Below are positions 1 to 32,077 of a stretch of DNA of 35,677 bases, one piece after another. The notes beneath the pieces are model-generated. The model worked only from the letters and a program-made list of their open reading frames with translations. It was not told the DNA's origin and did no database searches. A program made the translations under genes and the position numbers. This DNA is from a virus, in the IMG/VR virus record IMGVR_UViG_3300034159_000093, positions 1 through 35,677 of that record; one strand, given 5' to 3'. Position 1 is the first letter of the stretch, and the number at the start of each line of letters is the position of its first letter.

Positions 1-49
1 GGCGACGCTGGCGGCCGGCCACGCCACCAACCTTGCCAAGCTGCTGTAG
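1..49 (+). CDS. 3' end of last late gene (repeat copy, partial)
   Basis: This is the C-terminal tail (ending ATNLAKLL) of the 79-residue protein encoded whole at 35398-35637. It appears here only because the circular sequence overlaps itself. Codons start at base 2 and the TAG stop is at 47-49. It is not a separate gene. Confidence 0.9.
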   Translation, partial: ATLAAGHATNLAKLL

Positions 50-89
50 CCGGGCGCGAGAATCAAAAAGCACCCCCCTCCTCGTGCTG
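1..89. repeat. Left copy of 89-bp direct terminal repeat
   Basis: Bases 1-89 are identical to 35589-35677. The repeat covers the last 16 codons of the small last late gene plus the left half of the terminator after it. It shows that the window is a closed circle opened at an arbitrary point, or has true short direct terminal repeats. A cut inside a gene and a terminator stem favours assembly overlap. Confidence 0.95.
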
Positions 90-2905: not shown

Positions 2906-2986
2906 CGGCGCCGTTCAGAGCGGCGCCGTTTCTATTTCCGCTGGGTGTATTACACCTGCCTCAGATCGCCCAGGGTGTAATACACC
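2906..2986. promoter_or_regulatory. Repeat cluster: candidate centromere (parC) or operator
   Basis: The 160-bp gap between parR-like and the translocase gene holds two 13-bp palindromes, GGTGTATTACACC (2944-2956) and GGTGTAATACACC (2974-2986), with centres 30 bp (about three helix turns) apart. It also holds two direct copies of CGGCGCCGTT (2906-2915, 2921-2930). Evenly phased dyads beside a ribbon-helix-helix protein fit a ParR binding locus. They could equally be an operator for the leftward promoter of the translocase gene. Confidence 0.55.
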
Positions 2987-2991: not shown

Positions 2992-3225
2992 CTAGAAGTC
3001 GTCGAGCAGCTGGTCAAGCTCCTCCTCACTGATCCCCAGCTCGGGGATCAGGGCCGGCTGCCCGCCCACCTCGCCGCGAAGAAACGCCGCCGCCCAGGCC
3101 AGCAGGGCGGCCGACCGACCGCCCTGGGCCACGTCCCTGAGCGCCGTGGCGACCGTGACGGCGTCGGGGTTCGCCGGCGAGAGGCTGATCGGCAGCACGG
3201 TGCGCCGACCCTGGAAGGTGGCCAC
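2992..3225 (-). CDS. ParR-like ribbon-helix-helix partition adaptor
   Basis: Encodes 77 residues. The N-terminal half has a ribbon-helix-helix pattern: a strand RRTVLPISL (7-15), then SPANPDAVTVATALRDV and GGRSAALLAWAAAFL as two helices. It closely resembles plasmid StbB/ParR proteins that bind centromere repeats as dimers. The C-terminal tail is acidic (EEELDQLLDDF), as expected for the part that contacts the ParM filament. The GTG start at 3225 lies just after the stop of the actin-like gene, with AGGAG eight bases upstream, so the two are translated together. Identification rests on the fold pattern and on the neighbour. Confidence 0.75.
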   Translation of the reverse strand: MATFQGRRTVLPISLSPANPDAVTVATALRDVAQGGRSAALLAWAAAFLRGEVGGQPALIPELGISEEELDQLLDDF

Positions 3226-3226
3226 G

Positions 3227-4201
3227 TCAGGAGCTCCTCAGGGCGCGCCGGCGGGCGTAGCGCCAGAGGCCGATCGCAATTGCCTGCTGGGGGTTGGCCA
3301 CGACCCGCGCCTTGGGCCCAAAGGCCCGTCGCAGGTCCTCGGCGACCCAGTGGGCCGTGCCGCCGGCGAAGAGGTAGGCCGCGGGCTTGAAGAGGCTCCA
3401 GGACCGCTGCAGCTCGCCAAGCACGGCCTCTCGATACTGGCGCAGCAGCGCATCGGCCGCGCTGTCCTTGCCGGGCTCCTTGACGGCCGCCTCGAGGCGC
3501 CGCTCGGCGTCGACGTACTGCTGCCCGCTCTGCTGCTGGAGCGCCTCGACCACCTGGCGGCTGCCAAGCAGCGGGCTGGCCGACTGGCCTGGCAGAGCCC
3601 GGAGGCCCTCGAGCACGCTGCGGTTGAGCGTGGCGCCGCCGATATCGCCGACGGCGACCAGGCCCTTGGCCAGCGCCGCCTGGTCGGTGCGGATCTGGCC
3701 CGCGTCGTCGAGCAGCTCGTGGCTGACCACGGCGTTGGGCTCCGACTGCACGACGATCTCCTTGACGTCGACGATGCCGCGCAGGCCCACGCGCAGGTGG
3801 CCGATGATCGCGGCCTCGGCCGACTCGTCGCGCCAGGCCACGGGGAGCGCCGTGGCGATCAGGACCGTGGGCCTGGGCTCGGCCCTGCTCAGGCCGGTGT
3901 GCTGCGCCGACATCTGGGCCAGGGCCTGGTACATCGGCGAGTTCGGCTCGAGGCGCCCGTTGGCCATCTGGCGGTTGGCCAGGGGCAGGCGCTCAGCCGC
4001 CACGCCGCCGAGGTAGCTGGCGCCGCCCACGGTGGCGACCAGGTCGCGGCTCCGGCGGACCAGGCCCGTGTCGTCGCTCTTGGCCCAGGGGGCGATGACG
4101 GCGGGGTAGGGGCGCAGATCCTTGCGCTCGCCGGCGACGGTGATGGTGTCCTTCACGAAGCGCTGCCCCGGATTGTGTCCCCAGCAAAGAATGGTGCTCA
4201 T
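3227..4201 (-). CDS. parM: ParM/StbA-like actin-family segregation ATPase
   Basis: Encodes 324 residues, the usual length for plasmid actin-like proteins. Actin-fold landmarks are present in order: an N-terminal phosphate-1 loop (GHNPGQRFVK, 8-17), SEPNAVVSHELL (153-164), phosphate-2 loop VAVGDIGGATLN (182-193), adenosine loop YLFAGGTAHWVAEDL (276-290) and a C-terminal NPQQAIAIGLWRYA. Such proteins form filaments that push plasmid copies apart after capture by ParR on parC. The usual phosphate-1 aspartate appears to be Asn10. The gene is directly followed by the ParR candidate. This module is expected on low-copy plasmids and supports a plasmid-like lysogenic state. The family is clear, but the subgroup is not. 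Confidence 0.85.
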   Translation of the reverse strand: MSTILCWGHNPGQRFVKDTITVAGERKDLRPYPAVIAPWAKSDDTGLVRRSRDLVATVGGASYLGGVAAERLPLANRQMANGRLEPNSPMYQALAQMSAQHTGLSRAEPRPTVLIATALPVAWRDESAEAAIIGHLRVGLRGIVDVKEIVVQSEPNAVVSHELLDDAGQIRTDQAALAKGLVAVGDIGGATLNRSVLEGLRALPGQSASPLLGSRQVVEALQQQSGQQYVDAERRLEAAVKEPGKDSAADALLRQYREAVLGELQRSWSLFKPAAYLFAGGTAHWVAEDLRRAFGPKARVVANPQQAIAIGLWRYARRRALRSS

Positions 4202-4249
4202 AGTCCCCTCATCGTAGCGGAATAACCCCGCGTTGTGACTAAACGGTGC

Positions 4250-4648
4250 CTACCCCTGCGCCCGCCGCGCGCGCATCGCGCCCAGCAGGCCGCCGATCTG
4301 CGCGTCCCCCAGGTCCATCGCGCGCAGCTCGGCGAGCAGCGCCGCCTCGGTTGTCGCGGTGGCGGCGGCCTCGATCAGGTGCTGCCCGATCTCGGCCGCG
4401 GACGCCGCGGGCAGCGTGGCCGGGAGCGCGGGGCCGCTCAGCTCGACGAAGCCCTCGCCGGTCTTCGTGCCCACGCCGCTGAAGACGCTGAAGGTCTCCT
4501 CGCCGCGGTGCTTCACGCCGGCGACGGCGGTGCGCAGGCGGCCGATGGCGGCCATGATCGCGACGGTCGTGGCGCCCTGGGACTCGAGCTCGCACACGCG
4601 CTGCGCGGCGGCGATCAGCTCCTGAAAGCGGCTGGTGTTGGTGGTCAT
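4250..4648 (-). CDS. Hypothetical protein (132 aa)
   Basis: No family recognised. It is Ala-rich and mostly helical, with one Gly/Thr-rich middle segment (SVFSGVGTKTGEGF). No membrane segment or cysteine motif is visible. The start at 4648 overlaps the stop of the gene upstream (ATGA). It is the last gene of the overlapping chain that starts near 9268. A 48-bp gap without a clear promoter separates it from the parM start at 4201. Confidence 0.65.
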   Translation of the reverse strand: MTTNTSRFQELIAAAQRVCELESQGATTVAIMAAIGRLRTAVAGVKHRGEETFSVFSGVGTKTGEGFVELSGPALPATLPAASAAEIGQHLIEAAATATTEAALLAELRAMDLGDAQIGGLLGAMRARRAQG

Positions 4649-5013
4649 CCCTCGGTGCCTCGCAGTCTAATACGCGCATCCCAATCGTCGTCGGTTCCGT
4701 CCTTGGCCTCCTCTGCCTGCCGGCGCTGGTACTCGTCGAAGGAGGCGTCGGGCCAGAAGGTACCAAACCCGCCCGGCGTGGGCGGTCGCTCCTCTGCCTG
4801 CAGCAGCACCTCGACAAGGTTGAGTAGCCGCTGGCGCCAGTCGGCCTGGCTCAGCAGGCCCTGGGCGGCCTTGAGCTGCCAGGGCGGAGCCGTCGAGCGG
4901 TAGAGCGCCGCGCCCTCGGCGACCGCGCGGGCGGCCAGCGTGGCGCGGGCCAGGGCGCTTTCGTCGGCGAAGGTCACGATCAGCTCTGCGGTGATTGGGT
5001 CAGGATTGCTCAC
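4645..5013 (-). CDS. Hypothetical protein (122 aa)
   Basis: Function unknown. The start is a GTG at 5013 (MSNPDPITAELIVTF), five bases after AAGGAG and overlapping the upstream stop as GTGA. Residues 5-20 look like a beta strand, followed by alanine-rich helices, with an acidic, Asp/Glu-rich C-terminal third (EEAKDGTDDDWDARI). Three genes in this chain begin Met-Ser-Asn with GTG starts, which may reflect local duplication of the translation start region. Confidence 0.65.
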   Translation of the reverse strand: MSNPDPITAELIVTFADESALARATLAARAVAEGAALYRSTAPPWQLKAAQGLLSQADWRQRLLNLVEVLLQAEERPPTPGGFGTFWPDASFDEYQRRQAEEAKDGTDDDWDARIRLRGTEG

Positions 5014-5459
5014 AGGGTCTCCTTCCACTCGTCAGCCTCGCTCAGGAGCGGGTCGCCCTCGTCGAACTGCTCGCAGCGCCAGCCGTCAACGTGGTAGCGG
5101 CTGCCGGGGACGTCGTCGCGCTCCACCTGGTAGCCCCACCAGCCATAGTCCCCGTCGGCGTCGGAGACCAGAAACTCGGCGCGGTAGACGCCGTCCTCTG
5201 GCACCTGACCGACGCGCATCGTCAGCGCCTGGCCCGACTGGAGCCCGCCGTACCAGTCCAGAAACGCGCCCCGGCAGGCCCGGGCCGCCTCGTCTCGCTC
5301 AGTGGTGGTGGTCATCTTCTCCCCCATCGCGGTCATCGCCCTGCCCAGCGCGATCAGGGCCTCCATCGTCTCGCGCGGCATCTTCGGGTCGCCGCAGATC
5401 CGCAGCGGCGCGCCGTCCACATCGATCTCAAACCAGCGGTGGCGGTGGCGATTACTCAC
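5010..5459 (-). CDS. Hypothetical protein (149 aa)
   Basis: Not recognised. I take the GTG at 5459 (MSNRHRHRWFEIDVDG) as start: it overlaps the upstream stop, and the frame further upstream only shadows the neighbouring zinc-finger gene. The protein has a compact, aromatic-rich C-terminal half (GDYGWWGYQVERDDV, YHVDGWRCEQFDEGD) that looks like a small beta fold. Ordinary composition and tight coupling support it as a real gene. Confidence 0.65.
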   Translation of the reverse strand: MSNRHRHRWFEIDVDGAPLRICGDPKMPRETMEALIALGRAMTAMGEKMTTTTERDEAARACRGAFLDWYGGLQSGQALTMRVGQVPEDGVYRAEFLVSDADGDYGWWGYQVERDDVPGSRYHVDGWRCEQFDEGDPLLSEADEWKETL

Positions 5460-5769
5460 AACTGAGGATCTCGGGGATCCGCGCGAAGGCCCGCAGCGCC
5501 GCCGCGACCTCCGGCCCCATGCGCCGGCGCCGGAAGCGCCGGCGGTCAGGAAAGCCCGCGCAGCGGCTACAGAGCGTGGCGCGGTCGTTGGCCCAGTAGC
5601 ATCCGCGCCCGTAGTCGCGGCAGGCCCGGCGCTCCGTGCATCCGCAGCGCCGGCAGCGGCCTGTCGTCGAAAAGCGAGGCCAGTAGCGCCGATAGTCGTC
5701 GTCATCCCACAACAGGGCCTCGAACTCGCAGAGGCCCACAAAGCGGGTGCGGTCGTCAGGATTGCTCAC
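5452..5769 (-). CDS. Small cysteine-rich, zinc-ribbon-like protein
   Basis: Encodes 105 residues. A dense cysteine cluster occupies residues 38-69: CRRCGCTERRAC, then GRGC and LCSRC. This spacing is typical of a small zinc-binding module found in many phage proteins. The C-terminal third is Arg-rich (RRRFRRRRMG), so nucleic-acid binding is plausible. Start is GTG at 5769 (MSNPDDRTRF), overlapping the upstream gene by 14 bases. The exact role is unknown. Confidence 0.65.
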   Translation of the reverse strand: MSNPDDRTRFVGLCEFEALLWDDDDYRRYWPRFSTTGRCRRCGCTERRACRDYGRGCYWANDRATLCSRCAGFPDRRRFRRRRMGPEVAAALRAFARIPEILSCE

Positions 5770-6160
5770 GAGAATCCCCCTCTTGCTCGCTTACGGCCCC
5801 CACGCCGGCGCTGCGCAGCGCCGCCAGGTACGCCGCCGGGATCGTCGCCTCACTGCCGCTGCGCCCGGCGTAGGCCCAGTGCCAGGCCGTGCCGGGGTAG
5901 GCCTGCGCGACGTGGATGCCCAGGTCGCGCAGGCCGTCGCTGAGCGCGTTCCACTCGGCGACCAGGCGCGCGTAGGGCTCGGTGTAGCTGTCGCGCCGGA
6001 TCAGGGTCGTCTGGGCCTCGTCGAGGGCGGCGGCCAGGCGCTCGGTGATACCCACCAGGTGGAGGGCCTGGCGCTTGGGGCAGCGCGCGCCGGGCTCCTC
6101 GAGCGCCAGGCGCATCGCCGCGGCCTGGGATCGGGCCTCGCGGGTGTCTACACGCTGCAT
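5756..6160 (-). CDS. Hypothetical protein (134 aa)
   Basis: Unknown function. The ATG at 6160 (MQRVDTREARSQ) is preferred because GGAGG lies eight bases upstream and the start overlaps the stop of the small upstream gene (TGATG). The first 85 residues are predicted helical (ALHLVGITERLAAALDEAQ); an aromatic patch follows (GTAWHWAYAGRSGSE). No catalytic motif is seen. Confidence 0.65.
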   Translation of the reverse strand: MQRVDTREARSQAAAMRLALEEPGARCPKRQALHLVGITERLAAALDEAQTTLIRRDSYTEPYARLVAEWNALSDGLRDLGIHVAQAYPGTAWHWAYAGRSGSEATIPAAYLAALRSAGVGAVSEQEGDSREQS

Positions 6161-6285
6161 CAGTTCAGCCTCCACTGCTCGCCGTAGCGCCACAGCGACG
6201 TCCACAGCCAGGCGTAGGTCCGCGTTGAGATCGCGCCGGTGAGCCAGGCGCGCTGAAGGAGGTGGTCGCGCTGCTGCCGGCTCAT
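6160..6285 (-). CDS. 41-residue tryptophan-rich small protein
   Basis: A very short gene linked on both sides: its ATG (6285) overlaps the stop of the ParB-like gene (ATGA), and its stop overlaps the next start (TGATG). The protein is MSRQQRDHLLQRAWLTGAIS followed by a Trp/Tyr-rich half (TYAWLWTSLWRYGEQWRLN). Five tryptophans in 41 residues suggest a tight protein contact or a peripheral membrane helix. No database family is known to me. The overlaps at both ends are the main evidence that it is translated. Confidence 0.6.
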   Translation of the reverse strand: MSRQQRDHLLQRAWLTGAISTRTYAWLWTSLWRYGEQWRLN

Positions 6286-8045
6286 GGCGTCACCCCCGCT
6301 GCGGCGGCCCGCCTGAGCTCGCCGATGCGCTGCGCCAGGCGCTCGTACTGGTCATCGGCGAGCTCGCCGGCCTGCGCGTCGAGCCGGCGCTGGAGCGCCG
6401 CGACCGCGCCGGCCCCCGGCGGGTCGCCGTGGGCGGCGGCGAGCTCGGCGGAGACGACGGCCCGGCGCAGGTTGGCCACCTGGTGCGCGGCCACGGGGGC
6501 GGCCACGGGGGCGGCCGCCAGCGTCTCATCGTCGGCCATCAGCAGGCCCTCGACGATGAGCTCAAAGAGCTCGTCATCGTCGAGCGGCGTCCCGCGCGTG
6601 GCCATCCCGATCCCTACGCGCGCCAGCCACAGGAGCGACGGGCGCGCCGCCGCCCGCTCGGCGACCAGGGCCCGCTCGGCCGCCACGTAGCGCTCGCGCT
6701 GATCGGCCGGCTCGGCGTCGGGCTCCTCGTCCTCGGGCGATGCCGGCAGGGGCGTCGCCGTCTCAAAGTGGCGCACGCGCGCCAGGGCCGCCAGGTAGTA
6801 CGGGTGTTCGCCCGCGGCCCCATCGGGCTCGACCATGCGGTAGCTCCCGTCCGGCCGCCAGGCGAGCGCGCAGCCCACCGCGGCCGCGCGGTCGATCAGG
6901 GCCCTTATCTCCTCAGGGGGCGCGGGCTCCTCCAGCGCGTCAAGGCGAGCAAGGACGCCCACCCAGCGCTCGTAGTGCTCAGGGCTGCCCGCACCGCTCG
7001 GCGGGTCCAGGGCCAGCACGAAGATCTTCGCACTGGTCCCGTCGTCGTTTTTGACCCCCCGCCCGAGATAGCGGCCGAGCGCCTTCGCCCGCGCGAAGGC
7101 CTTGTCGAACGCCTCGGCGGGCGGGTAGGCCACGCCGAAGATCCGCGCCAGCTGCTCGGCCAGCGCGATCGGCAGCGCCTCCCCCGTGCCGAGCGGCGGC
7201 CAGTCGAGCTCGGCGGCCCGCTCGAGCGCCCGCACCGCCTCGGCCTGGTCATCAAACAGGCGAAGCAGCATATAGCCCGTCGGGACGTGCGTGATCGAGA
7301 ACTGCCGATCGGAGAGCCGCGCCGTCAGACCCCCGCCAAGCCACGCGGGCGTGAGGGCCAAGACGCCGAGACGCCGCAGCACCGGGGACTCGCGCGGGCC
7401 CGACTTCGTCGAGACGGTGATCGTCTCGGCGGGCGCTTCCGCCGGCGGCGCGGGCTCGGGGGCGCTCAGCAGAGCCAGGGCCTCGGCGAGAGGGCGGCCC
7501 TCGACCCGCGCGTCAACGGCGGCCATCGCGCGGCTGTAGTGCGCGCCGGACTCACGCGCCGCGACGTAGGCGGCCTTGGTGTCGCCCCGGCGCAGGGCCT
7601 CGGCGACGGCGGCCAGGGGGTCGGGGCGAGCGGCATCGCGGATCTGGGCGGCCGTGGGCGACTTCCCGCCGGCGGCCTCGGTCGCCCGCTGCATCACCGC
7701 CCGGCGGTCCTCCGGGGGCAGGGGGGCCAGCGCGCGGGCCTGGGACTCGTTGGTCAAACTGTTGCCAATTGGCAACAGATCGCGCTGCACCTCGGCGGCG
7801 GTGATCAGGCGGCTCGCATGGCTGCGCCCGCCGATCTGAGGCCAGCGCGCGGCGAGGTAGGCGTCGAAACTGCGGTGCGTGGCGCGGTACAGCCGCTCGT
7901 CACGGATCGCAGCGAGCGCCTCACCGACGGCGATGAACGCGCCGATCCCGTCGGTGATCACGGCCTCGTGCTGCGCTAAGGCGCGCTGATCGGCGCTGGT
8001 CAGCGGCGCATCGCCCGACAGATCGACAAGGATCTCAGTGCTCAT
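6282..8045 (-). CDS. Large ParB-like/phage DNA-binding protein
   Basis: Encodes 587 residues. Residues 30-125 match a region common in phage and plasmid proteins: an EVGEAL-like helix (FIAVGEALAAIRDERLYR), a SFDAYLAARWP segment and SHASRLITAAEV, a ParB/KorB-type helix-turn-helix pattern. The remaining 450 residues are alanine-rich and unassigned (LGRYLGRGVKNDDGTSAKIF is its most distinctive stretch). No ParB nuclease or CTP-binding motif could be pointed to, so it may be a DNA-binding regulator or replication accessory rather than a partition ParB. Start at 8045 overlaps the upstream stop (ATGA). It is the biggest gene in the chain of small coupled genes. Confidence 0.65.
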   Translation of the reverse strand: MSTEILVDLSGDAPLTSADQRALAQHEAVITDGIGAFIAVGEALAAIRDERLYRATHRSFDAYLAARWPQIGGRSHASRLITAAEVQRDLLPIGNSLTNESQARALAPLPPEDRRAVMQRATEAAGGKSPTAAQIRDAARPDPLAAVAEALRRGDTKAAYVAARESGAHYSRAMAAVDARVEGRPLAEALALLSAPEPAPPAEAPAETITVSTKSGPRESPVLRRLGVLALTPAWLGGGLTARLSDRQFSITHVPTGYMLLRLFDDQAEAVRALERAAELDWPPLGTGEALPIALAEQLARIFGVAYPPAEAFDKAFARAKALGRYLGRGVKNDDGTSAKIFVLALDPPSGAGSPEHYERWVGVLARLDALEEPAPPEEIRALIDRAAAVGCALAWRPDGSYRMVEPDGAAGEHPYYLAALARVRHFETATPLPASPEDEEPDAEPADQRERYVAAERALVAERAAARPSLLWLARVGIGMATRGTPLDDDELFELIVEGLLMADDETLAAAPVAAPVAAHQVANLRRAVVSAELAAAHGDPPGAGAVAALQRRLDAQAGELADDQYERLAQRIGELRRAAAAGVTP

Positions 8046-8293
8046 GGCCGCCTCCGAAACTGCCGCGCCCCCGGCTCGACGGCCGCAGCGCGAAGGCTCT
8101 CACGCTGGCGGGCCTGGGTGATCTGCGCCAGCTCGCCCTCCAAGCCGATCGCTGCGGCGATCAGCCTGGTCGCCAGGCCCTCGAGGCGATCGGCGGGGTC
8201 CTCGCCGGCCTCCAGCGGCCGACGGGCGTCGCGGGCGTACGCCCGGAGGGACTCGGCGAGGCGCTGGGCCTCGCGCTCGAGCAGGTAGCTCAT
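8042..8293 (-). CDS. Small helical hypothetical protein (83 aa)
   Basis: Unrecognised. The sequence is almost entirely helix-forming (MSYLLEREAQRLAESLRAYA, then a second helix LIAAAIGLEGELAQITQARQ), consistent with a coiled-coil dimer or an accessory subunit. Overlaps its neighbours by ATGA at both ends (8290-8293 and 8042-8045), so it is co-translated with the ParB-like gene that follows. Confidence 0.65.
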   Translation of the reverse strand: MSYLLEREAQRLAESLRAYARDARRPLEAGEDPADRLEGLATRLIAAAIGLEGELAQITQARQRESLRAAAVEPGARQFRRRP

Positions 8294-8511
8294 CCCTCAG
8301 CTCCTTTCGTGTCGGTGAGGCCGTAGTTGCGGGCCGTCGCCGCCACGCAGTCGCGGCAGAGCGGCAGGATCAGGTACGAGCCGCCGGGCATCGGGTCGGC
8401 CTGGGCGACGCTGGCCGGCTGGCCGCAGCGCCGCTCGAGGTCGCCCGGCGCCGGCTTCCACGCGCCGCAGGGCAGCGGCGGGTCGATGCGCAGGGTGATA
8501 CTGATGCTCAA
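8290..8511 (-). CDS. Small Cys-containing hypothetical protein (73 aa)
   Basis: Function unknown. A TTG start at 8511 is proposed: it overlaps the previous stop (TTGA) and has GGAGG seven bases upstream. The frame open upstream is only a shadow. Four cysteines occur as two groups (PPLPCGAW/RRCGQ and PLCRDC), a possible metal site. Ends TDTKGAEG. Confidence 0.6.
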   Translation of the reverse strand: MSISITLRIDPPLPCGAWKPAPGDLERRCGQPASVAQADPMPGGSYLILPLCRDCVAATARNYGLTDTKGAEG

Positions 8512-8954
8512 GATTGCACCTCCAGAATGCTTCGGGCCGCCACGCGCTCGGCCTGGCGGGCCGCGGTGTCGAGGCCCACGGCGCGGGCCAGGTCGCCGGC
8601 GGCCAGGGCCTCCCCGGCCTGGGCGTAGCGCCACACGGCCAGTCGGGCGGCCAGCCAGCGCCGGCGCAGTAGCCAGCGCTCGTACTCGTCCCCCTCGTGC
8701 GCGATCAGCACCCGGAGCGCGTCGGCGTAGCGCTCCGCAGGCCGGCGGAGATCGGGCGCCGGGATCACGGCGGCCGGCGGGGCGATCCGGGCCCGGATCA
8801 GGGCGACGTGGGCGCGGGCCAGGCGGGTCGCGCGCGCCGCGGTGGCGTCGTCGAGCCCGGCGGCGATGGCCCGGGCGATCCTCTGCCAGTCCGGGGAGCC
8901 GGGGGCCGGGGCGGGGCGGCTCTGGGCGCGGGGGGTGAGGCGTAGGCTGCTCAT
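8508..8954 (-). CDS. Hypothetical helical protein (148 aa)
   Basis: Not recognised. Arg/Ala-rich and mostly helical (ATRLARAHVALIRARI, YERWLLRRRWLAARLAVWRY). The first 22 residues are low-complexity and Pro-rich. It sits directly after the DnaA domain IV gene, overlapping it by ATGA, so a replication-accessory role is possible, but nothing in the sequence proves it. Confidence 0.6.
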   Translation of the reverse strand: MSSLRLTPRAQSRPAPAPGSPDWQRIARAIAAGLDDATAARATRLARAHVALIRARIAPPAAVIPAPDLRRPAERYADALRVLIAHEGDEYERWLLRRRWLAARLAVWRYAQAGEALAAGDLARAVGLDTAARQAERVAARSILEVQS

Positions 8955-9268
8955 CGCTCGCCTCCCCGCTCGATCCTGGCGAGCCGGGCCACGGCCTCAG
9001 CGTCGGCCGCGAGCCGGCGCAGGCCGTGGATCACGGTGCTGTGGTCCAGGCCCAGCAGCCGCCCGATCGCCGAGCGGCTCAGGCCGCGCTGGGTCAGCAG
9101 CCACATCGCCGCGTGGCGGGCCTGGACCCAGGCCGGCTCGCGGCAGCGCCGGCACAGCGCGGCCGGCGTGGTGTCGAGCAGGGCCGCGATCTCGGCGAAT
9201 GCGACCTGCTCGGCCGGGGCCACCCGGAACTCCACCGGGGCGCGGCTCGAGGCATCGTAGCGGGACAT
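8951..9268 (-). CDS. Stand-alone DnaA domain IV-like DNA-binding protein
   Basis: Encodes 105 residues. Residues 50-87 (ARHAAMWLLTQRGLSRSAIG and GLDHSTVIHGLRRL) carry the hallmark of the DnaA C-terminal domain, which binds DnaA boxes: the invariant DHSTV-H core and the preceding RH-A-WLL helix. There is no AAA+ ATPase domain and no DnaA domain I. About 45 extra residues precede it and include C39 and C42. The start at 9268 has GGAGG six bases upstream, and AAGAATACCAC lies just before. The upstream gene encodes a DnaA domain I-like module, so initiator functions seem divided between two proteins. Confidence 0.8.
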   Translation of the reverse strand: MSRYDASSRAPVEFRVAPAEQVAFAEIAALLDTTPAALCRRCREPAWVQARHAAMWLLTQRGLSRSAIGRLLGLDHSTVIHGLRRLAADAEAVARLARIERGGER

Positions 9269-9326
9269 AGGAACCTCCGTGGTATTCTTGGGCCGGCGCC
9301 GTGGTGGGAACCTCCAGCGCCGCCCA

Positions 9327-9354
9327 GGGCCCGGCTGTGCTAGCAGCCGGGCCC
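9327..9354. terminator. Strong hairpin between initiator and DnaA-IV genes
   Basis: Perfect 11-bp arms (GGGCCCGGCTG and complement) around TGCTAG. It lies 10 bases after the stop of the initiator gene on the minus strand. No T-run follows on either strand, so it may pause, process or protect RNA rather than terminate. Confidence 0.5.
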
Positions 9355-9364
9355 GCTCTGTGGG

Positions 9365-10483
9365 TCAGGGTGCGGCTGCCTCGAGGCGCAGCTGCACTGG
9401 CGCGCCGACGAGGTCGCCGAGCGTGCGCCGGATCTGCGTGGCGTAGCGCCGCTCAACCGCGCCGGCGACCTCGGCCGACGGGGCGCGCAGCGTGGCCGCG
9501 CCGTCGGCGAGCGCGACCAGGTCGAGGCCGCGCAGCCAGTTGTCGAACTCGCCCGGCGGGATCTGCGCCCGCAGCGTGCCGATAGCGGCACGCCAGAGCT
9601 GGCGCAGACCCGGCGACGGGCCCGGCGGGCTGGCCCGCGCCGGGGACGGCTCAGAGCGCGGCTGCAGGGCCGGCGACGTGCGCAGGGCCGCCCGCAGCGC
9701 CTCGGCGCTCTCGGCGGGCGGCGCAGCTCGGCCACGCGGGGCCGGAGGCGGCAGGGCCTGGCGCCGCGGCGTGATCCGCTCGCCCCGCGACCAGGCGGCC
9801 AGCACCAGGCCGCCTGGCCAGCCCACGCCTGGCCGGTCCTGCGCCGCGGCGAGGTCGACGCGCCAGTCGGCCAGCGTGGCCCGCGGGGAGCCGGCGAGCG
9901 CCGCCACCGCGGCCGAACAGTTGTTCACGTAGGGGTCTGCCTGCCAGGCGGCGAGCAGCGCGCGATCGGCGCCGGGGAACTCGGCGAGCAGCACCTCTGT
10001 CAGGAACGCCCTATCCGGTTTCGCATCTTCGCGCGCGCGATCATGCTGCTGCTGCTTAGATTCATGATTAGTACCATATAGGGGGGTCTGGGGGGTGGCG
10101 ATCAGTGATCGATCAGGCGGATCCTCTACCGCATCCTGATGCGGTATTTCATGTGTGACCGAGGTGGGCTCGGCGGGCGGTGGCTGATCAGCGATTGATC
10201 GGGCGATCGGCTCCGCCTGCTGCAGGTGGATCTCGGCGACCTGGCCGCCCTCGCCCGGGTAGAACTCGACGCCGATAATCTCCAGCGCCTCGAGCTCAGC
10301 AAACAGGATCTTGGGGTAGCTCAAGCCGCAGCCAAGCGCCGCGCTCCAGCCGCGCACGCCGCCCGTGAGGATCGTGACGCCGTCGGCGCCGGCGAGCTGG
10401 TAGAGGCGCTTGCAACCCTGGAGTTGCGCGGGCCGGCGAAGGTCGAGCAGCTGGTCGGTGATGTGGTTCGGGAGTGAGATCAT
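9365..10483 (-). CDS. Replication initiator: winged-helix N-terminus plus DnaA domain I-like C-terminus
   Basis: Encodes 372 residues. Residues 10-90 look like a winged-helix DNA-binding domain (YPKILFAELEALEIIGVEFY). Residues 90-155 are a flexible linker whose DNA carries repeats. Residues 295-370 match DnaA domain I: LWRAAIGTLRAQIPPGEFDN, then WLRGLDLVAL, TLRAPSAEVAGAVERRYATQ and IRRTLGDLVGAPVQLRL. In DnaA that domain binds the replicative helicase DnaB. An initiator that binds an origin in its own gene and recruits helicase through its C-terminus is the plan of phage lambda gpO. This would be an analogue built from a DnaA piece. The start at 10483 overlaps the upstream stop (ATGA). The order of domains is seen; the mechanism is inferred. 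Confidence 0.8.
   Translation of the reverse strand: MISLPNHITDQLLDLRRPAQLQGCKRLYQLAGADGVTILTGGVRGWSAALGCGLSYPKILFAELEALEIIGVEFYPGEGGQVAEIHLQQAEPIARSIADQPPPAEPTSVTHEIPHQDAVEDPPDRSLIATPQTPLYGTNHESKQQQHDRAREDAKPDRAFLTEVLLAEFPGADRALLAAWQADPYVNNCSAAVAALAGSPRATLADWRVDLAAAQDRPGVGWPGGLVLAAWSRGERITPRRQALPPPAPRGRAAPPAESAEALRAALRTSPALQPRSEPSPARASPPGPSPGLRQLWRAAIGTLRAQIPPGEFDNWLRGLDLVALADGAATLRAPSAEVAGAVERRYATQIRRTLGDLVGAPVQLRLEAAAP
10100..10205. other. Candidate replication origin inside the initiator gene
   Basis: GATCAGTGATCGATCAGGCG (10100-10119) recurs at 10186-10205 with three changes. Midway lies a perfect 20-bp inverted repeat with 9-bp arms (TACCGCATC, 10127-10146). Just to the left, 10040-10083 is unusually A+T-rich for this genome. 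Repeats plus an easily melted region within the linker of an initiator gene is the layout of lambda ori inside gene O. No DnaA box was found. Confidence 0.55.
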
Positions 10484-10791
10484 AGGACCTTCTCCCTTCG
10501 CAGCTCGGGCGGCGGCAACATCTCGATCGCAAAGCCGCCGCCGCGGCCATCGCCGAGGGCGTGGCGGACCAGGAAGACCCCGTCCATCGCGCGGATCGCG
10601 ATGGAGACAGTTCCCTCACTGACGCAGGCGTGGCGGGCGATGATGGCGTTGCTGAGCTTCCGCCGCCGTCCATCAGGGATAAGGCGCCGCAGCACGGCGA
10701 GGATCTTGAACTCGCTGGCCGACAGGGACTGCTCCATCGAGCGCGTCATGCGGCTGTAGCTAATATCGTCGTAGTCGACAGATCGGATCAT
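10480..10791 (-). CDS. Winged-helix DNA-binding protein (103 aa)
   Basis: Residues 25-92 read as a winged helix-turn-helix: ASEFKILAVLRRLI, then LSNAIIARHACVSEGTVSIA (recognition helix), then a wing FLVRHALGDGRGGGFAIEML. This fits a small phage regulator or replication-origin binding protein. It is the first gene of the minus-strand replication unit and overlaps the initiator by ATGA, so it may control that unit or help the initiator. Start at 10791, with GGTGAG nearby. The specific family is not recognised. Confidence 0.7.
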   Translation of the reverse strand: MIRSVDYDDISYSRMTRSMEQSLSASEFKILAVLRRLIPDGRRRKLSNAIIARHACVSEGTVSIAIRAMDGVFLVRHALGDGRGGGFAIEMLPPPELRREKVL

Positions 10792-12954: not shown

Positions 12955-13011
12955 AACAAGAGGGCTCCCGAACTAGGCTACTGAGCCTGCTAGTTCGGGA
13001 GCCCTCTTGTT
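12955..13011. terminator. 22-bp perfect inverted repeat at end of repressor gene
   Basis: Arms 12955-12976 and 12990-13011 are perfectly complementary over 22 bp, around a 13-nt loop that can itself fold (AGGCT/AGCCT). The repressor stop codon lies in the left arm, so its last codons are in the stem. It probably insulates the converging integrase and repressor transcripts in both directions, although T-runs are short. Confidence 0.65.
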
Positions 13012-13254
13012 AGTTGGATCATACTCCAAGATGTCGTTGGGCGTTACCGGACGCTCAAGTACCTGTGAGTAGAACCTGCACAGGCCCGCGAGTGTGCCAA
13101 AATCAATGCGGCCAGTGTGGCCGTTTTCGATTCTGCTCAGCTGCACACGCGATAATCCAACAGCCTCCGAAACCTCCTCAACCGTCACCGTCCGCCCGAT
13201 CTTCTGGGCGTAGTCCAGGCGAAGCTGGCGTACCCGTGATGTAATTTTCGCCAC
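12973..13254 (-). CDS. Cro/CI-family helix-turn-helix repressor
   Basis: Encodes 93 residues, a single HTH_3 domain without a CI-type cleavage/dimer domain. The helix-turn-helix is at about 25-45: VTVEEVSEAVGLSRVQLSRIENG. GTG start at 13254 (VAKITSRVR) lies six bases after GGGAGG; the longer frame runs into the promoter region. Its divergent promoter overlaps an AGATCT-centred site, and two more lie between it and the early gene, so it probably represses both promoters. With no RecA-cleavage domain, induction may work by an anti-repressor or by other means. Lysogeny control is inferred from layout. Confidence 0.85.
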   Translation of the reverse strand: MAKITSRVRQLRLDYAQKIGRTVTVEEVSEAVGLSRVQLSRIENGHTGRIDFGTLAGLCRFYSQVLERPVTPNDILEYDPTNKRAPELAGSVA

Positions 13255-13282
13255 TAGACACCTCCCTTTACCGCTCGCTTCT

Positions 13283-13311
13283 ACGATAGCCCAAGATCTA
13301 CGGCTTGTCAA
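13283..13311 (-). promoter_or_regulatory. Repressor promoter
   Basis: On the minus strand: TTGACA (13306-13311), a 17-bp spacer and TATCGT (13283-13288), a near-consensus sigma-70 type promoter. The expected start point lies about 23 bases before the repressor GTG. Operator O1 sits inside the spacer. Confidence 0.8.
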
Positions 13312-13380
13312 GTATTGCTTACGCATCGTAGATCTGGCTTATTTTGCCGTGCCTAGACCTTGACGAGTTGTAGATCTTAG
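13291..13380. promoter_or_regulatory. Three operators O1-O3 centred on AGATCT
   Basis: Copies are CCAAGATCTACGG (13291-13303), CGTAGATCTGG (13327-13337) and TTGTAGATCTTAG (13368-13380). O1 is in inverse orientation to O2 and O3. Centres are 36 and 42 bp apart. O1 lies in the repressor promoter spacer, O3 in the early promoter spacer and O2 midway. This is a standard place for a repressor to block both promoters and to cooperate across the middle site. Confidence 0.75.
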
Positions 13381-18370: not shown

Positions 18371-18463
18371 GCGCGCTCCCGTGGCACGCCTGGCCCGCGA
18401 CGCCCCAGGGCGGTGTCCTTGGACGCCGAGATCGTCAGCGGGCCGCTCAGCGCGCCACAGGGC

Positions 18464-18956: not shown

Positions 18957-19007
18957 TGCTATACTCGCCATGAGATCAGGGTGCGCGGCAAGCGAATACC
19001 TGATCTC
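18957..19007 (+). promoter_or_regulatory. Late promoter with 5' stem-loop
   Basis: TGC-TATACT (18957-18965) is a good extended -10; no clear -35. A perfect inverted repeat GAGATCAGG (18972-18980) and complement (18999-19007) follows at the expected start of the RNA, then TTTATG. It may be an operator or a 5' stem-loop that tunes late expression; its AGATC core recalls the AGATCT operators. The endolysin ribosome site is 30 bases further on. Confidence 0.6.
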
Positions 19008-19050
19008 TTTATGCACTGCGCACCCTGGCTCTACTCCAGGAGCGCATGGT

Positions 19051-20475
19051 ATGCCCCCCGCGATCGGCCTTATCCTCACCCACGCCCCCGACCTGGCCTG
19101 GCTGCGCGCGCAGATCACCGCCGCCCGCGCCGACACCCTGAAGATCGTCCCGGCCTGGGGCCTGGCGAGCGGCTGGACCCCGGCCGCCGTCGTCGAGGCG
19201 GCATACCTCTGCCCCACCCTGATTGTGCGCACCAGCTGGGGCGACCCGAGCTACAGCTACGGCGCGCGGGCGCTGCCCTTCGCCAACCAGGTGCTCACCG
19301 AGGTGGCCCCCTGGGCCGCTGCCCGCGACGACCTGGTCGTCGAGATCGGCAACGAGCCGCTGCTCGAGGAGGCGGGCGAGGGCTACGCCTGGGCCTACCT
19401 CGCCCACCTCGACGCCGCGATCGAGGCGGTGCGCGCGAGCTACCCGCGCGCCCGGATCATCGCGCCGGCGCACCAGCGCGACCACCCGGTGCGGTTGGGC
19501 GACCACGCCGACGGCCAGCGCCGCTGGGATGAGATCGCCGCCTCGACCTACCGGCGCTGCGATATCCTCGGCCTCCACGCCTACAGCGTCAGCCAGGCCC
19601 AGCAGGGCATCCACGCGCTCCGCGACCTCGTCGGCACCAGCATGCCGATCTGGCTCACCGAGTTCGGGCTCTTCGAGCCGCTCGACGACGACGCGCGCGG
19701 CGCGCGCTACGCCGACGTGCTGGCCGCCCTCCCCGTCGAGGTCGCCTGCCTCTACCACCTCGACGCGAGCGCGGCCCCGGCCACGGCCGAGCAGGGCCCC
19801 GCGCAGTATCGGCTGCGCCCGGCCACGCTGGCGGCGCTCGGCGCGGCCTGCCCCCCGCTCGGCGGGGCCGCGCCGGCGCCGGTCGCCGTCCACCACCCCG
19901 ACCGCATCGACGACTTCCTGATCGACATCTGGCAGTGGCGCACCGTCGCCGCCTTTCGCCGCCACCTGGCCACCTACCGCAAGGCCGAGGTCGCGCCCTG
20001 GGCCAGCGGCGTGACCCTGCACCACAGCGTCTCCCCGATCCCCTCGACCTGGCGGGGGGTGCAGAGCATCCTGGGCATGGCCCGCTACTACCGCGACAAC
20101 CCGGACTACCGCTGGGATCGCGGGCCGCACCTGTTCGTGGTGAGCGGGTCGCCGAACCCCAACCACAACGGCATATTTCAGATGACGCCCTTAAACGCCA
20201 AGGGCATCCACGCGAACGCCTGCAACGGCAGCCGCTGGGGCCTCGAGGTCGTCGGCTCCTTCGATAGCCAGCGCTGGCCCGCCGACGTGGCGGGGCTGGC
20301 CCTGGGCACGCTGGCGGCGCTGCACGACTGGGCCGGCTGGCCCGCCGTGACGCTCGCCACGCTGAACGGGCACCGCGACTGCGCCGGCGTCGACCCGACG
20401 AAGAGCTGCCCCGGCCGGGCGATCGACCTGCCCACGGTGCGCCGGGGCGTGGAGGCCCTGCGCAATGCGCCATGA
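19051..20475 (+). CDS. Endolysin: glycosidase-like domain fused to an amidase domain
   Basis: Encodes 474 residues from ATG 19051 (AGGAG eight bases upstream; an in-frame ATG at 18970 is less likely). Residues 1-270 resemble a clan-A glycoside hydrolase barrel: WGDPSYS, LVVEIGNEP with putative acid/base Glu102, LGLHAYS, and IWLTEFGL with putative nucleophile Glu204. Residues 315-474 match amidase_2/PGRP proteins: TLHHS (His324), GPHLFVVSG, GHRDC (His441) and TKSCPG (Lys451, Cys453), the zinc and catalytic set of T7 lysozyme-type enzymes. It should cut peptidoglycan at two kinds of bond. The barrel family is inferred from motifs only. It is the first late gene and is followed by small lysis-type genes. 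Confidence 0.8.
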   Translation: MPPAIGLILTHAPDLAWLRAQITAARADTLKIVPAWGLASGWTPAAVVEAAYLCPTLIVRTSWGDPSYSYGARALPFANQVLTEVAPWAAARDDLVVEIGNEPLLEEAGEGYAWAYLAHLDAAIEAVRASYPRARIIAPAHQRDHPVRLGDHADGQRRWDEIAASTYRRCDILGLHAYSVSQAQQGIHALRDLVGTSMPIWLTEFGLFEPLDDDARGARYADVLAALPVEVACLYHLDASAAPATAEQGPAQYRLRPATLAALGAACPPLGGAAPAPVAVHHPDRIDDFLIDIWQWRTVAAFRRHLATYRKAEVAPWASGVTLHHSVSPIPSTWRGVQSILGMARYYRDNPDYRWDRGPHLFVVSGSPNPNHNGIFQMTPLNAKGIHANACNGSRWGLEVVGSFDSQRWPADVAGLALGTLAALHDWAGWPAVTLATLNGHRDCAGVDPTKSCPGRAIDLPTVRRGVEALRNAP

Positions 20476-21583: not shown

Positions 21584-22318
21584 ATGAGCGACATCGCCCC
21601 ACAACCCACCACCCCCCAGGCCCGCTACGAGGCGGCGCTGGCCGCGCTGCGCCCGCAGCGCCGCAAGTTCGTTCTTGAATATCTGCGCGATCTCCACGGC
21701 CGCAACGCGGCTACGCGGGCCGGTTACTCGCCCGCCACGGCTGAAGTACAGGCCAGCCAACTCTTAAGAGATCTTAAGGTCCGCGGCGCTGTTGACGCCG
21801 GCCTCGACCTCCAGGCGATGCCCGCGGCCGAGATCCTGGCCCGCCTCTCGGCCCAGGCCCGCGGCGACATGGCCGACTACCTCAGAGTGGACGAGGAGGA
21901 GATCACCATCGCGACCAGCGTGGCCGTGCTGACCCCTGAAGAGGAGATTGGCGCCGCGGCCGACGCGATCCCGCTCCTACGCCAGCTCATCCCTGACGAC
22001 GACCGGCCGCGCCGGGCCGTGAAGATCACGACGGCGACGATCACCCGGTCGGTGGCGCGCCTTGACCTGCTGGCGGCCGGTAAGGCCGGGAAGCTCGGCG
22101 TCGTGAAGAAGTACACCGTCGATAAGGACGGCAAGGAGTCGATCGAGCTCTACAGCGCAAAAGATGCGCTGGAGCTGCTCGGCAAGCACCGCAAGCTCTG
22201 GGGCGACGACCCCGGAGGTGCCATCTCGAAGTACCTGGACGTCTCGAAATTAACGCCGGATCAGCTCGAGCGGCTGTCGGCCGGGGAGGACCCGTATGCT
22301 GTCCTACTCGGGCGCTAA
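21584..22318 (+). CDS. terS: Terminase small subunit
   Basis: Encodes 244 residues. The N-terminal helix-turn-helix pattern is typical of phage small terminases (RRKFVLEYLRDLHGRNAATR, AGYSPATAEVQASQLLRD), which bind packaging DNA. The middle RLSAQARGDMADYLRVDE and C-terminal AKDALELLGKHRKLWGDD also match the terminase_2 family. The gene directly precedes, and overlaps, the large subunit. The distant C-terminal part should hold the oligomer and the large-subunit contact. GGAG lies four bases before ATG 21584. Confidence 0.85.
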   Translation: MSDIAPQPTTPQARYEAALAALRPQRRKFVLEYLRDLHGRNAATRAGYSPATAEVQASQLLRDLKVRGAVDAGLDLQAMPAAEILARLSAQARGDMADYLRVDEEEITIATSVAVLTPEEEIGAAADAIPLLRQLIPDDDRPRRAVKITTATITRSVARLDLLAAGKAGKLGVVKKYTVDKDGKESIELYSAKDALELLGKHRKLWGDDPGGAISKYLDVSKLTPDQLERLSAGEDPYAVLLGR

Positions 22319-23870
22319 CCACCAGCTGCAGCTGCGCGCCCGGGCGGCGCTCGAGCTGCGCCGGCGCAGGGAGGCCGGCGAGCTTGAGGGGCACGCGGCG
22401 GGCGGCGTGGACTGGCGGCCCTTCCCTGGGAGTCCCCAGGATGCGGCCTACCACTCTGAGGCGATCTGGATCGGCTACGGCGGGGCAGCCGGCGGAGGGA
22501 AGACCGACCTGGGCCTGGGCCTAGCCGGGACGAAGCACCGACGCTCCGTGATCTTCCGCCGAATCTACAAGACCCTGGCCGGGACGATCGAGCGCTCCCG
22601 GGAGGTCTACAACGCCCAGGCGGCCAGCCGCGGAGAGGACAGCTATAACGAGAGCCTCCACCGGTGGCGCCTCTCTTCCGGCCGCCTGGTCCAGTTCGAC
22701 GGGATCGAGCACGAGAAGAACAAAGAGGACTGGCGGGGCGTTCCCTTCGATCTCCATGTCTTCGATGAGGCCACGCAGTTCACAGAGAGCATGGTCCGCT
22801 TCGTGACCGGCTGGAACCGAACAAGCGTACCCGGCCAGTCGTGCCGCGTGCTGCTCACCTTTAACCCGCCTACCGATGAGGCGGGGCGCTGGGTTATCCG
22901 CTTCTTTCTCCCCTGGATGGCCTTTCTGTACCCGAAGCTGCAGGAGAGCCAGTCGTACCTGGCCAACGGCGGGATCCCGGCGGCCCCGGGGGAGCTGCGC
23001 CACTACCTGATGGGCGAGGACGGGAAGGACGTGGAGGTCCCGGCGGAGACTCCGAAGGCGAGATCGCGAACCTTTTTCCCGGCGAAGGTGGAAGACAACC
23101 CGGTCTATATGGCCCAGGGCTACGACGCCACGCTGGAGGCCATGCCGGAGCCGCTCCGGTCGCAAATGCGCTACGGGGACTTTGGCGCGGGGATCGAGGC
23201 GGACCCCTGGCAGATCATCCCCCACGCCTGGACCGCTGCCGCCAAAGGCCGCTGGGCACCCCAGACGATTTCAGGAAGGCCCTCCGGGGCGGGCCTGGAC
23301 GTGGCCCGCGGCGGGCGCGATCAGACCGTGGTGGCCCGCCTGTACGGCTCCTGGCTGGCCCCGCTCCAGGTGGTCCCTGGGGCGGCCACGGACACGGGCC
23401 CCAAGGCGGCCGCCCTGGTGATCCCAGATCTGGCTCAGGGCGTCCCCGTCGGCGTCGACGTGATCGGGGTGGGCGCCTCCGCCTTTGATAGCCTGGTCGG
23501 GGAGGGGCTTCCGGTGGCCTCCGTGAACTTCTCCGAGAGTGCAAAGGACCCCGTAACTGGCCTGCCCTTCCTGAACCGAAGCGGGAAGCTGCGCTTCCTC
23601 AACCTGCGCGCTTACGGCTACTGGCTGGTCCGGGAGGCCCTGGACCCGGAGGGGGAGGGCGAGCGCCTGGCCCTCCCGCCGGATGACGCGCTGATCACGG
23701 AGCTCTGCACGCCCCGCTGGTCCCTGACCTCGCGCGGGATCCAGGTGGAGAGCAAAGAGGACGTGATCAAGCGGGTAGGCTACAGCCCGGACCGCGCGGA
23801 CGCCCTGGTCATCGCCCTGCTGGCCCCGCTGCTGGCGAAGAGTCCGGAGGTATCGTTACGATGGCTGTAG
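22296..23870 (+). CDS. terL: Terminase large subunit (packaging ATPase/nuclease)
   Basis: Encodes 524 residues. Walker A GGAAGGGKT (62-70), Walker B LHVFDEA (153-159), and coupling motif LLTFNPP (186-192) form the ATPase. The nuclease half contains Asp335 in GLDVARGGRDQTV, Asp388 in GVDVIGVGASAFD and Asp499/Asp502 in SPDRADALVIAL, the RNase H-like acidic set. It pumps DNA into the capsid and cuts at the ends of packaging. It overlaps terS by 23 bases and has GGGGAGG six bases upstream. Arginine codons appear to lean towards CGG here. Family is certain; cos or headful packaging is not decided. Confidence 0.93.
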   Translation: MLSYSGANHQLQLRARAALELRRRREAGELEGHAAGGVDWRPFPGSPQDAAYHSEAIWIGYGGAAGGGKTDLGLGLAGTKHRRSVIFRRIYKTLAGTIERSREVYNAQAASRGEDSYNESLHRWRLSSGRLVQFDGIEHEKNKEDWRGVPFDLHVFDEATQFTESMVRFVTGWNRTSVPGQSCRVLLTFNPPTDEAGRWVIRFFLPWMAFLYPKLQESQSYLANGGIPAAPGELRHYLMGEDGKDVEVPAETPKARSRTFFPAKVEDNPVYMAQGYDATLEAMPEPLRSQMRYGDFGAGIEADPWQIIPHAWTAAAKGRWAPQTISGRPSGAGLDVARGGRDQTVVARLYGSWLAPLQVVPGAATDTGPKAAALVIPDLAQGVPVGVDVIGVGASAFDSLVGEGLPVASVNFSESAKDPVTGLPFLNRSGKLRFLNLRAYGYWLVREALDPEGEGERLALPPDDALITELCTPRWSLTSRGIQVESKEDVIKRVGYSPDRADALVIALLAPLLAKSPEVSLRWL

Positions 23871-25873
23871 AACGCCCGCCCTGGTGGCGCCGGATCTTCG
23901 GCCGCGGCGAGAAGGCCGCGAGCCTGCCCTTTGTGGCCGAGGTGCCCCGCTGGCGCAACGTCACCTGGGAGGCGCCCCGCTTCCGCCGCCTCGCCGATGA
24001 GGGCTACTCCAAGAACGGCGCGGTGTTCGCCTGTGTGAGCGCCCTGGCTATGGCCTACCCGGAGCCCCCGGAGATCGTGGTCGACGCCGGCGGTGCCACG
24101 CTCGCCGATCACAGCCTTACGCACCTGCTGCACCGCCCCAACCCGCTGATGAGCGCGGCCGAGCTCGACATCTTCAAGATCGTCTACTGCGCGATCGGCG
24201 GCAGCTGCTACCTGCACAAGATCCGCTCGCGCGCAGGCCGCGTCGTCGAGCTCTGGCCCTACCACGCCGGCCAGCTGCGCCCGGTGCCCTCGCCCACGAA
24301 CTGGGTGAGCCACTATGAGTACATCGGCGACGGCGATGTGCCCGACGAGCTGCGCCAGATCGCGGCCAGCGAGATCATTCACTTGAAGTGGCCGAGCGTC
24401 GACCTGCTGCAGCCCTGGCTGCCGCTGCCGCCGCTGATGGCCATTGCCCGCGAGGTCGACACCACCGGGGAGATCGGGCGCTACCTGTACGCTCTGCTCG
24501 CAAACGATGCCGTGGGCCGCACGGTGGTCTCAATGCCCCCCGGCATCGAGCTGAAGGATGCGCAGTTCGAGCGACTGCGCCAACAGTTCGAGGCCCGCCA
24601 CGGCGGCGACAACCGCGGCCGTGCGCTGTTTGTTGAGGGCGGGGCCAAGATCGACCGCATGGCCCTCAACCTCGAGGAGATGGCCTGGGAGGCGCTCTCC
24701 CGGGTGCCAGAGGCGCGGATCGCGGCCGGCTTCCGGGTGCCCGCGATCATTGCCGGGCTGCTCGTCGGCCTGGAAAAAGCGACCTATGCCAACTTCTCGG
24801 AGGCCCGCAAGGTGTTTGCGCAGGACACGTGCGTGCCACTCTGGCGCCACCACGACGACGAGATGACGCAGGGCCTGGCGGGAGAGTTCGGCCCGGGCCT
24901 GCGCATTGGGCGCGACCTCTCACATGTCGCCGCGCTGCAGGAGAACGCCGACGCGCTCTACGGGCGGGCGCTGCGCGGCTGGGACGGCGGGCTGATGACC
25001 CGCAACGAGGCCCGGCTGATCATCGGCCTGCCCCGCATCGAGGATCTCGTTCTGCCCCCCGGCGCCCCCGCGCTGCCCCCCGGCGACGTATTCGTCGATA
25101 GCGTCGCAATGGCGCCCCTGGCGCTGCCCGCGCCGCGAGACGTGACGCCAGAAGACCAGCGGGCCGCCCTCCCCTGGCTCTCCGCGAAGGATCGCCGACT
25201 TGTGAAGCGGGCGGGGGACTCGACAGAGCCGATCGAGCCGCGCATCGCGGAGGCCCTCGAGGGCTACCTGGAGAGCCAGTACGACCTGGCCGCCGATGGC
25301 GTGGCCGCGGCCACAGGGAGCCCCGCGGAGATCGTGGATCAGCTGGGCCTCGATCTGGGCTCGGGCATCGCCACCCTGATGCGCCGCTTCTACCGGCTGC
25401 TCATTGGCGCGGCCTGGGTAGACGCGGGGACCACGCTGGCCCTCGATCTGGTCTTTGACCTCGAGAACCCCCTGATCCAGACGGTCCTGGGCCAGCTGGC
25501 CCGGCGCGTGACCCGCGTGGCGGAGACCACGCGGGAGGAGATCCGGGCCCTGGTGGGCCTGCAGGCCGCCGAGGGGTGGAGCGTGGAGCGCCTGGCCCGC
25601 GAGATCCGGGCGGCCGGAGTGACCCGCTGCCCAGCACGGGCCCGGCTGATCGCGGCGACCGAGACGGCGGAGGCCTACAGCCTGGGCAGCAAGGCCGCCT
25701 ACCAGGAGGCGGGCGTGGTCACCGGCGTGCGCTGGCTGACCACGGAAGACGCGTGCCCAATCTGCAGCCCGCTGAACGGAAAGACGGCCCCGCTCGACGG
25801 GGACTTCGGGGGCGGGATCAGCCACCCGCCGGCGCACCCGGGATGTCGCTGCGCGATAGCGCCGGTTTTGTAA
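23861..25873 (+). CDS. Portal protein fused to MuF-like head morphogenesis domain
   Basis: Encodes 670 residues. Residues 1-430 are an HK97-type portal (NPLMSAAELDIFKIVYCAIG, FRVPAIIAGLLVGLEKATYA, FSEARKVFAQDT). The portal forms the DNA channel ring. The last ~110 residues match the Mu gpF domain: RARLIAATETAEAYSLGSKA, WLTTEDACPICSPLNG, then HPPAHPGCRC, a Cys/His metal-like cluster. In many phages MuF is a separate gene; here it is one chain with the portal, so each portal subunit would carry one MuF. A long unassigned linker lies between (about 430-560). ATG 23861 overlaps terL. Confidence 0.85.
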   Translation: MAVERPPWWRRIFGRGEKAASLPFVAEVPRWRNVTWEAPRFRRLADEGYSKNGAVFACVSALAMAYPEPPEIVVDAGGATLADHSLTHLLHRPNPLMSAAELDIFKIVYCAIGGSCYLHKIRSRAGRVVELWPYHAGQLRPVPSPTNWVSHYEYIGDGDVPDELRQIAASEIIHLKWPSVDLLQPWLPLPPLMAIAREVDTTGEIGRYLYALLANDAVGRTVVSMPPGIELKDAQFERLRQQFEARHGGDNRGRALFVEGGAKIDRMALNLEEMAWEALSRVPEARIAAGFRVPAIIAGLLVGLEKATYANFSEARKVFAQDTCVPLWRHHDDEMTQGLAGEFGPGLRIGRDLSHVAALQENADALYGRALRGWDGGLMTRNEARLIIGLPRIEDLVLPPGAPALPPGDVFVDSVAMAPLALPAPRDVTPEDQRAALPWLSAKDRRLVKRAGDSTEPIEPRIAEALEGYLESQYDLAADGVAAATGSPAEIVDQLGLDLGSGIATLMRRFYRLLIGAAWVDAGTTLALDLVFDLENPLIQTVLGQLARRVTRVAETTREEIRALVGLQAAEGWSVERLAREIRAAGVTRCPARARLIAATETAEAYSLGSKAAYQEAGVVTGVRWLTTEDACPICSPLNGKTAPLDGDFGGGISHPPAHPGCRCAIAPVL

Positions 25874-25884
25874 GGAGACGAGCC

Positions 25885-29334: not shown

Positions 29335-29336
29335 CG

Positions 29337-30323: not shown

Positions 30324-30326
30324 CTC

Positions 30327-31337: not shown

Positions 31338-31346
31338 GAGGTGGCT

Positions 31347-32065: not shown

Positions 32066-32077
32066 GGAGGGGAGACC

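Follow-up and report, generated by a model that had tools for sequence, protein, structure and literature searches.

Plasmid-type partition genes in a complete phage genome

The stretch of DNA analyzed here, the complete IMG/VR virus record IMGVR_UViG_3300034159_000093 (35,677 bp, G+C 71%; hereafter, the window), is the entire genome of a tailed phage in a circular assembly. The phage is probably temperate and of the siphovirus type, its prophage being maintained as a circular plasmid at low copy number, like that of the Bacillus phage vB_BtS_B83. This phage-plasmid reading, proposed in an earlier note on the same DNA, is the best supported one, because the plasmid-type order of the ParM and ParR genes, the Xer-like recombinases, the initiator module, and the circular assembly match B83-like plasmid prophages; of the arguments originally offered for it, the one from actin was too strong and the one from a ParB-like protein failed. 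The record has 89 identical base pairs at both ends, not mentioned in the earlier note, and closes into a 35,588-bp circle. The plus strand carries, as had been claimed, a full HK97-type packaging, head, and tail set, from the small and large terminase subunits to the tape measure protein. The window holds both this complete virion and packaging set and a plasmid-type partition pair, its adaptor recognized by position and shape.

The ParM-like character assigned earlier to the product of gene 3227–4201 was confirmed when the profile check was run. Its match to PHROG 691 ("partition protein") reaches 2.3e-13, and Pfam ALP_N is matched weakly. PHROG 691 is also matched in 12 of 14 control genomes; hence, by itself it cannot separate ParM from other actin relatives, and a second line of evidence for the actin identity was sought. 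Among plasmids, only two Paenibacillus genes match the window ParM, one of them annotated parM, with pYS18 ParM at 6e-9. The Paenibacillus ParM is above cutoff for Pfam Alp7A_like_C and ALP_N, matches at 2e-14 the solved structure 3js6 (chain title "Uncharacterized ParM protein"), which we take to be a ParM of the pSK41 group, and aligns by hhalign with the window ParM family at 1e-9 over 221 columns, spanning the phosphate-2 motif DIGGxTL and the adenosine GG motif. The window ParM profile gives no direct match in PDB, only one via the Paenibacillus protein. Unlike PHROG 691 alone, the pYS18 link separates ParM from other actin relatives, and these alignments place the predicted protein among the actins of the ParM/Alp group, although its phosphate-1 residue is unusual.

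The window ParM was found in only two other viral contigs, G001 (IMGVR_UViG_3300034196_000147, 47,193 bp; 85% identity) and G002 (IMGVR_UViG_3300005330_000008, 53,892 bp; 66%). Similar to pSK41-type ParM, Alp7A, and the ParMR pair of Paenibacillus pYS18, the window has a small gene immediately downstream of that for the actin homologue; however, identity to the pSK41-type and pYS18 ParM is approximately 25%, Asp is replaced by Asn in the phosphate-1 loop, and the small downstream proteins do not align.

That small gene, 2992–3225, follows the stop codon of parM at a distance of no more than two bases. Its product shows RRTxxPISL, two helices, and then a conserved acidic tail, LGISEEELDQLLDDF, a predicted layout that fits a ribbon-helix-helix (RHH) adaptor with a ParM-binding tail. 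The earlier ParR-like assignment is favored by the position of the gene and the shape of its product, although the product has no profile match in Pfam, PHROGs, or NCBIfam. The gene is conserved in two other phages (58% and 51% identity).

Directly after the stop codon of this gene, the 13-bp palindrome GGTGTAWTACACC occurs in two copies 30 bp apart, and the motor gene follows, so that the order is parM, parR, palindromes, motor. A same-arm palindrome pair of such kind within 60 bp was absent in 98 of 100 shuffles; no further copies with fewer than three mismatches occur elsewhere in the window, and no such repeats lie upstream of parM. Of the repeat cluster described earlier, these two conserved, rarely expected palindromes are retained, but there is no iteron array, and the candidate centromere is much smaller than had been implied. 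G001 has the same two palindromes after parR, 29 bp apart, while in G002, where no motor match was found, different inverted repeats take their place. Given this pattern, the palindromes may belong either to ParR or to the winged helix of the motor, between which three genomes cannot distinguish. In an unrelated contig (L066, 67% G+C), the same palindromes lie upstream of a small RHH-like gene, which favors an RHH protein as the binder. A palindrome search in viral contigs yielded ten records besides G001 (L058–L063 and L065–L068), none of them matching the window's ParM, ParR, or motor; paired GTGTAWTACAC palindromes recur across these records and may be a widespread RHH operator.

Membrane-anchored motor, replication genes, and recombinases

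The FtsK/TraB-like translocase of the earlier note lies outside the block it described (2992–10791). The open reading frame extends from 2891, and the ATG at 2828 agrees with a relative. The N-terminal part of the protein contains two hydrophobic helices; Walker A (GQSHKGKSS) and Walker B (VLLVVDEF) occur in the expected order, and a winged helix lies at the C-terminal end. Membrane helices, a Walker motor, and a C-terminal winged helix make up the layout of TraB and FtsK, which the window protein shares with Streptomyces TraB (pIJ101 Tra) and FtsK. Profile searches of Pfam, PHROGs, and NCBIfam, however, gave no FtsK/TraB family match, and pairwise hhalign comparisons are weak, with Walker A and B in register (8e-4 with pIJ101 Tra and 5e-3 with Escherichia coli FtsK). 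Hence, the FtsK/TraB-like name seems reasonable, but not firm.

A putative initiator with a C-terminal DnaA_N domain and a protein with DnaA domain IV, a candidate origin binder, are encoded in the same leftward block. In DnaA, the DnaA_N domain recruits the helicase. The ParB identity proposed for the product of 6282–8045 had to be rejected: ParB_N and HTH_ParB are absent, and nothing in Pfam, PHROGs, or NCBIfam matches. The gene at a similar position in G001 encodes a true ParB with both domains.

The integrase called full in the earlier note is a tyrosine recombinase, but an XerC-like one lacking the arm-binding domain; a second tyrosine recombinase, absent from that note, differs from it in sequence. 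For both, the best NCBIfam score is XerC, below the cutoff of that model. Both are also short, which, together with the likeness to XerC, agrees with known plasmid prophages. Both consist only of SAM-like and complete catalytic domains, and are thus not of the lambda-integrase type.

Comparison with known systems and alternative explanations

vB_BtS_B83 and its relatives are plasmid prophages (PMC6669507, PMC8026635), and a published table lists known phages of this kind that encode ParM together with an RHH adaptor and either one or two Xer recombinases (PMC8026635). The gene content of B83 is close to that of the window. Similar to the window, which is a circular assembly, B83 combines a siphovirus head and tail set with a circular prophage, has a block opposite to the virion strand with a ParM-like protein, RHH adaptor, and initiator, and encodes two Xer-family recombinases, in B83 within that block. 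The Bacillota host, arbitrium genes, and RepA-like initiator are specific to B83, whereas the window has DnaA-domain proteins, an FtsK/TraB-like motor, 71% GC, and both recombinases on the virion strand. The plasmid-prophage lifestyle is already known; the divergent high-GC phage lineage is new, and actin-based plasmid prophages would be extended to it.

Several observations weigh against a plasmid prophage. Partition genes alone do not prove the plasmid state, as has been cautioned with the Corynebacterium prophage CGP3 as the named case (PMC8026635). CGP3 is integrated, and its actin AlpC, of the AlpAC system, serves replication of the excised DNA (PMC4446434, PMC5539076); the earlier argument, by which an integrated prophage has no need of actin, was too strong, since CGP3 uses AlpAC for moving its DNA during replication. 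The two tyrosine recombinases of the window could integrate. Circular contigs also arise from permuted or circularized virion or replicating DNA, and the 89-bp identical ends do not distinguish an extrachromosomal lysogen circle from virion or lytic DNA. Of the autonomous replication unit claimed earlier, the DnaA_N and DnaA domain-IV proteins stand, but no origin, DnaA boxes, or iterons were found in the window. The two palindromes are fewer than in a typical parC, with no iteron array. The usual phosphate-1 pattern of actins is GxDxGxxxxK, with aspartate; each of the three phage ParM proteins instead has GHNPGQRxVK in this loop, with Asn at the Asp position, and the filament dynamics of the window ParM are therefore uncertain. 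AlphaFold models from three sequences each were too poor for testing the fold, both for ParM (predicted local distance difference test, pLDDT, 48) and for ParR (pLDDT 59, with two helices in the places expected of RHH).

A rival possibility is that the phage integrates via one tyrosine recombinase, the actin and adaptor positioning its DNA in lytic replication, similar to AlpAC of CGP3. The CGP3 precedent, the complete catalytic domains of the two recombinases, and a circular record compatible with excised or virion DNA speak for it, and CGP3 shares with the window a phage-encoded actin plus a DNA-binding adaptor. However, in CGP3 the adaptor gene comes first, with 24 alpS repeats upstream (PMC4446434), whereas the window has the reverse order, parM before parR, which is that of plasmid ParMRC and not of alpAC. 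The recombinases are XerC-like and have no arm-binding domain; a tRNA T-arm attachment core is not enriched near them, which leaves room for a non-tRNA core; and none of the three circular records, the window among them, has host flanks (identical ends of 89 bp in the window, 127 bp in G001, and 50 bp in G002). On balance, integration of this kind seems unlikely.

We regard as very unlikely a dual-state element, that is, a plasmid also able to integrate, or one that the TraB-like motor carries from cell to cell in double-stranded form. The two transmembrane helices, Walker motifs, and C-terminal winged helix of the motor do follow the TraB layout, and the two recombinases differ in sequence; but no other transfer gene was recognized among the proteins scanned, the FtsK/TraB similarity is weak, and the motor is unmatched in G002, although ParM and ParR are kept there. 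It is hardly credible that the partition genes were left over from a plasmid as a neutral remnant, gained by recombination and with no role in the prophage: the cassette occurs in phages with different virion modules and therefore moves between genomes, but its frames are intact with strong third-position GC, ParM identity is retained at 85% and 66% beside diverged neighbors, and the palindromes are conserved.

For the plasmid prophage, we infer site binding by ParR, the plasmid state itself, multimer resolution, and the role of the motor as follows. The two palindromes next to the 3' end of parR would serve as binding sites for ParR dimers. The conserved acidic C-terminal helix of ParR would cap the ParM filaments, and these would drive sister circles apart ahead of cell division. 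The DnaA_N and DnaA domain-IV proteins may initiate replication, which would rely on the machinery of the host. The resolution of circle multimers might fall to one or both of the Xer-like recombinases, the membrane-anchored motor perhaps acting on the DNA much as FtsK does in the XerCD system. The C1-like repressor would keep the late operon off. It is quite unlikely, although conceivable, that the actin system and the motor share one small palindromic centromere, the filaments positioning the circle and the motor clearing or resolving it at the septum, as a unit traded between phages of different virion genes. The paired palindromes and the adjoining motor provide specific, testable sites for the inheritance of such prophages.

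Distribution of the partition cassette

The gene order of the window, with partition cassette, motor, helix-turn-helix (HTH) gene, repressor, and second recombinase, recurs in G001, while G002 keeps ParM and ParR. The window capsid does not occur in G001 or G002, and their terminases do not match that of the window (tblastn). Hence, with early genes in common and virion genes that differ, the cassette travels with the early region, and it occurs in phages with different packaging genes. Searches of the phage, plasmid, and genome collections yielded no close relative; two scans of genome contigs from 84,980 genomes for ParM or motor patterns revealed no relatives, a weak negative. One of 19 terminase relatives (G006) has an independent actin gene with a small downstream gene: here, a separate actin-like gene (L056, 1278–2463) is followed by a small gene of 72 amino acids.

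Table 1. Coordinates of the features in the window (a dot marks features given without strand)
Feature	Position	Strand	Remarks
Left copy of identical ends	1..89	.	Matches right copy
FtsK/HerA/TraB-like motor, membrane-anchored, C-terminal winged helix	1239..2828	-	Superfamily assignment weak by profile
Candidate parC/operator site 1, 13-bp palindrome GGTGTATTACACC	2944..2956	.	Kept in G001
Candidate parC/operator site 2, 13-bp palindrome GGTGTAATACACC	2974..2986	.	Kept in G001
ParR-like adaptor, 77 amino acids; N-terminal part RHH-like, with a conserved acidic helix at the C-terminus	2992..3225	-	Assigned by position and pattern
ParM-like actin (Alp7A/pSK41-ParM relative), 324 amino acids	3227..4201	-	Profile and pairwise matches
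Large protein, no ParB domain detected	6282..8045	-	Pfam, PHROGs, NCBIfam
DnaA domain-IV (Bac_DnaA_C) protein, candidate origin binder	8951..9268	-	E 1.5e-10
Initiator-like protein with C-terminal DnaA_N domain	9365..10483	-	E 7e-6
HTH protein	10480..10791	-	Overlaps initiator gene; 63% identical in G001
Tyrosine recombinase 1, XerC/D-like, 311 amino acids	11610..12545	+	Without arm-binding domain
Cro/C1-type HTH repressor candidate	12973..13326	-	
Tyrosine recombinase 2, XerC-like, 319 amino acids	17411..18370	+	54% identical in G001
Endolysin (open reading frame)	18970..20475	+	Real start probably 19051
Terminase small and large subunits	21584..23870	+	
Portal/head morphogenesis, maturation protease, HK97-type major capsid	23861..27881	+	
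Head-tail adaptor, tail genes, tape measure (32078–33661)	28741..35385	+	
Right copy of identical ends	35589..35677	.	Matches left copy

Other features of the window

The portal of the window carries a head-morphogenesis domain, and the best identity of the large terminase in the phage collection is approximately 45%. The repressor gene has at its 3' end a long hairpin (12955–13013; arms CAACAAGAGGGCTCCCGAACTAG and CTAGTTCGGGAGCCCTCTTGTTAGTTG), which is probably a bidirectional terminator.

A leader (18958–19050, plus strand), which is also present in G001, immediately precedes the first of the late genes and follows a promoter-like CCCCTGTGCTATACTC that is the same in both. Its two overlapping stems (GAGATCAGG/CCTGATCTC with CAGGGTGCGC/GCGCACCCTG) could form a pseudoknot or alternative hairpins. 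In G001, the leader architecture is kept at the matching place (23835–23920; L050, 4335–4424), with a different sequence. Rfam contains no matching family, beyond one chance-level match; the leader is possibly a late-operon RNA switch or a put-like antitermination site. A T-arm-like stretch near 19020, considered as a tRNA-type phage attachment site (attP), was rejected, as it belongs to the leader RNA structure. Between recombinase 2 and the late operon, approximately 600 bp (18371–18960, plus strand) have no convincing gene; G001 has a similar gap, with scattered similarity to that of the window, which perhaps harbors a noncoding RNA.

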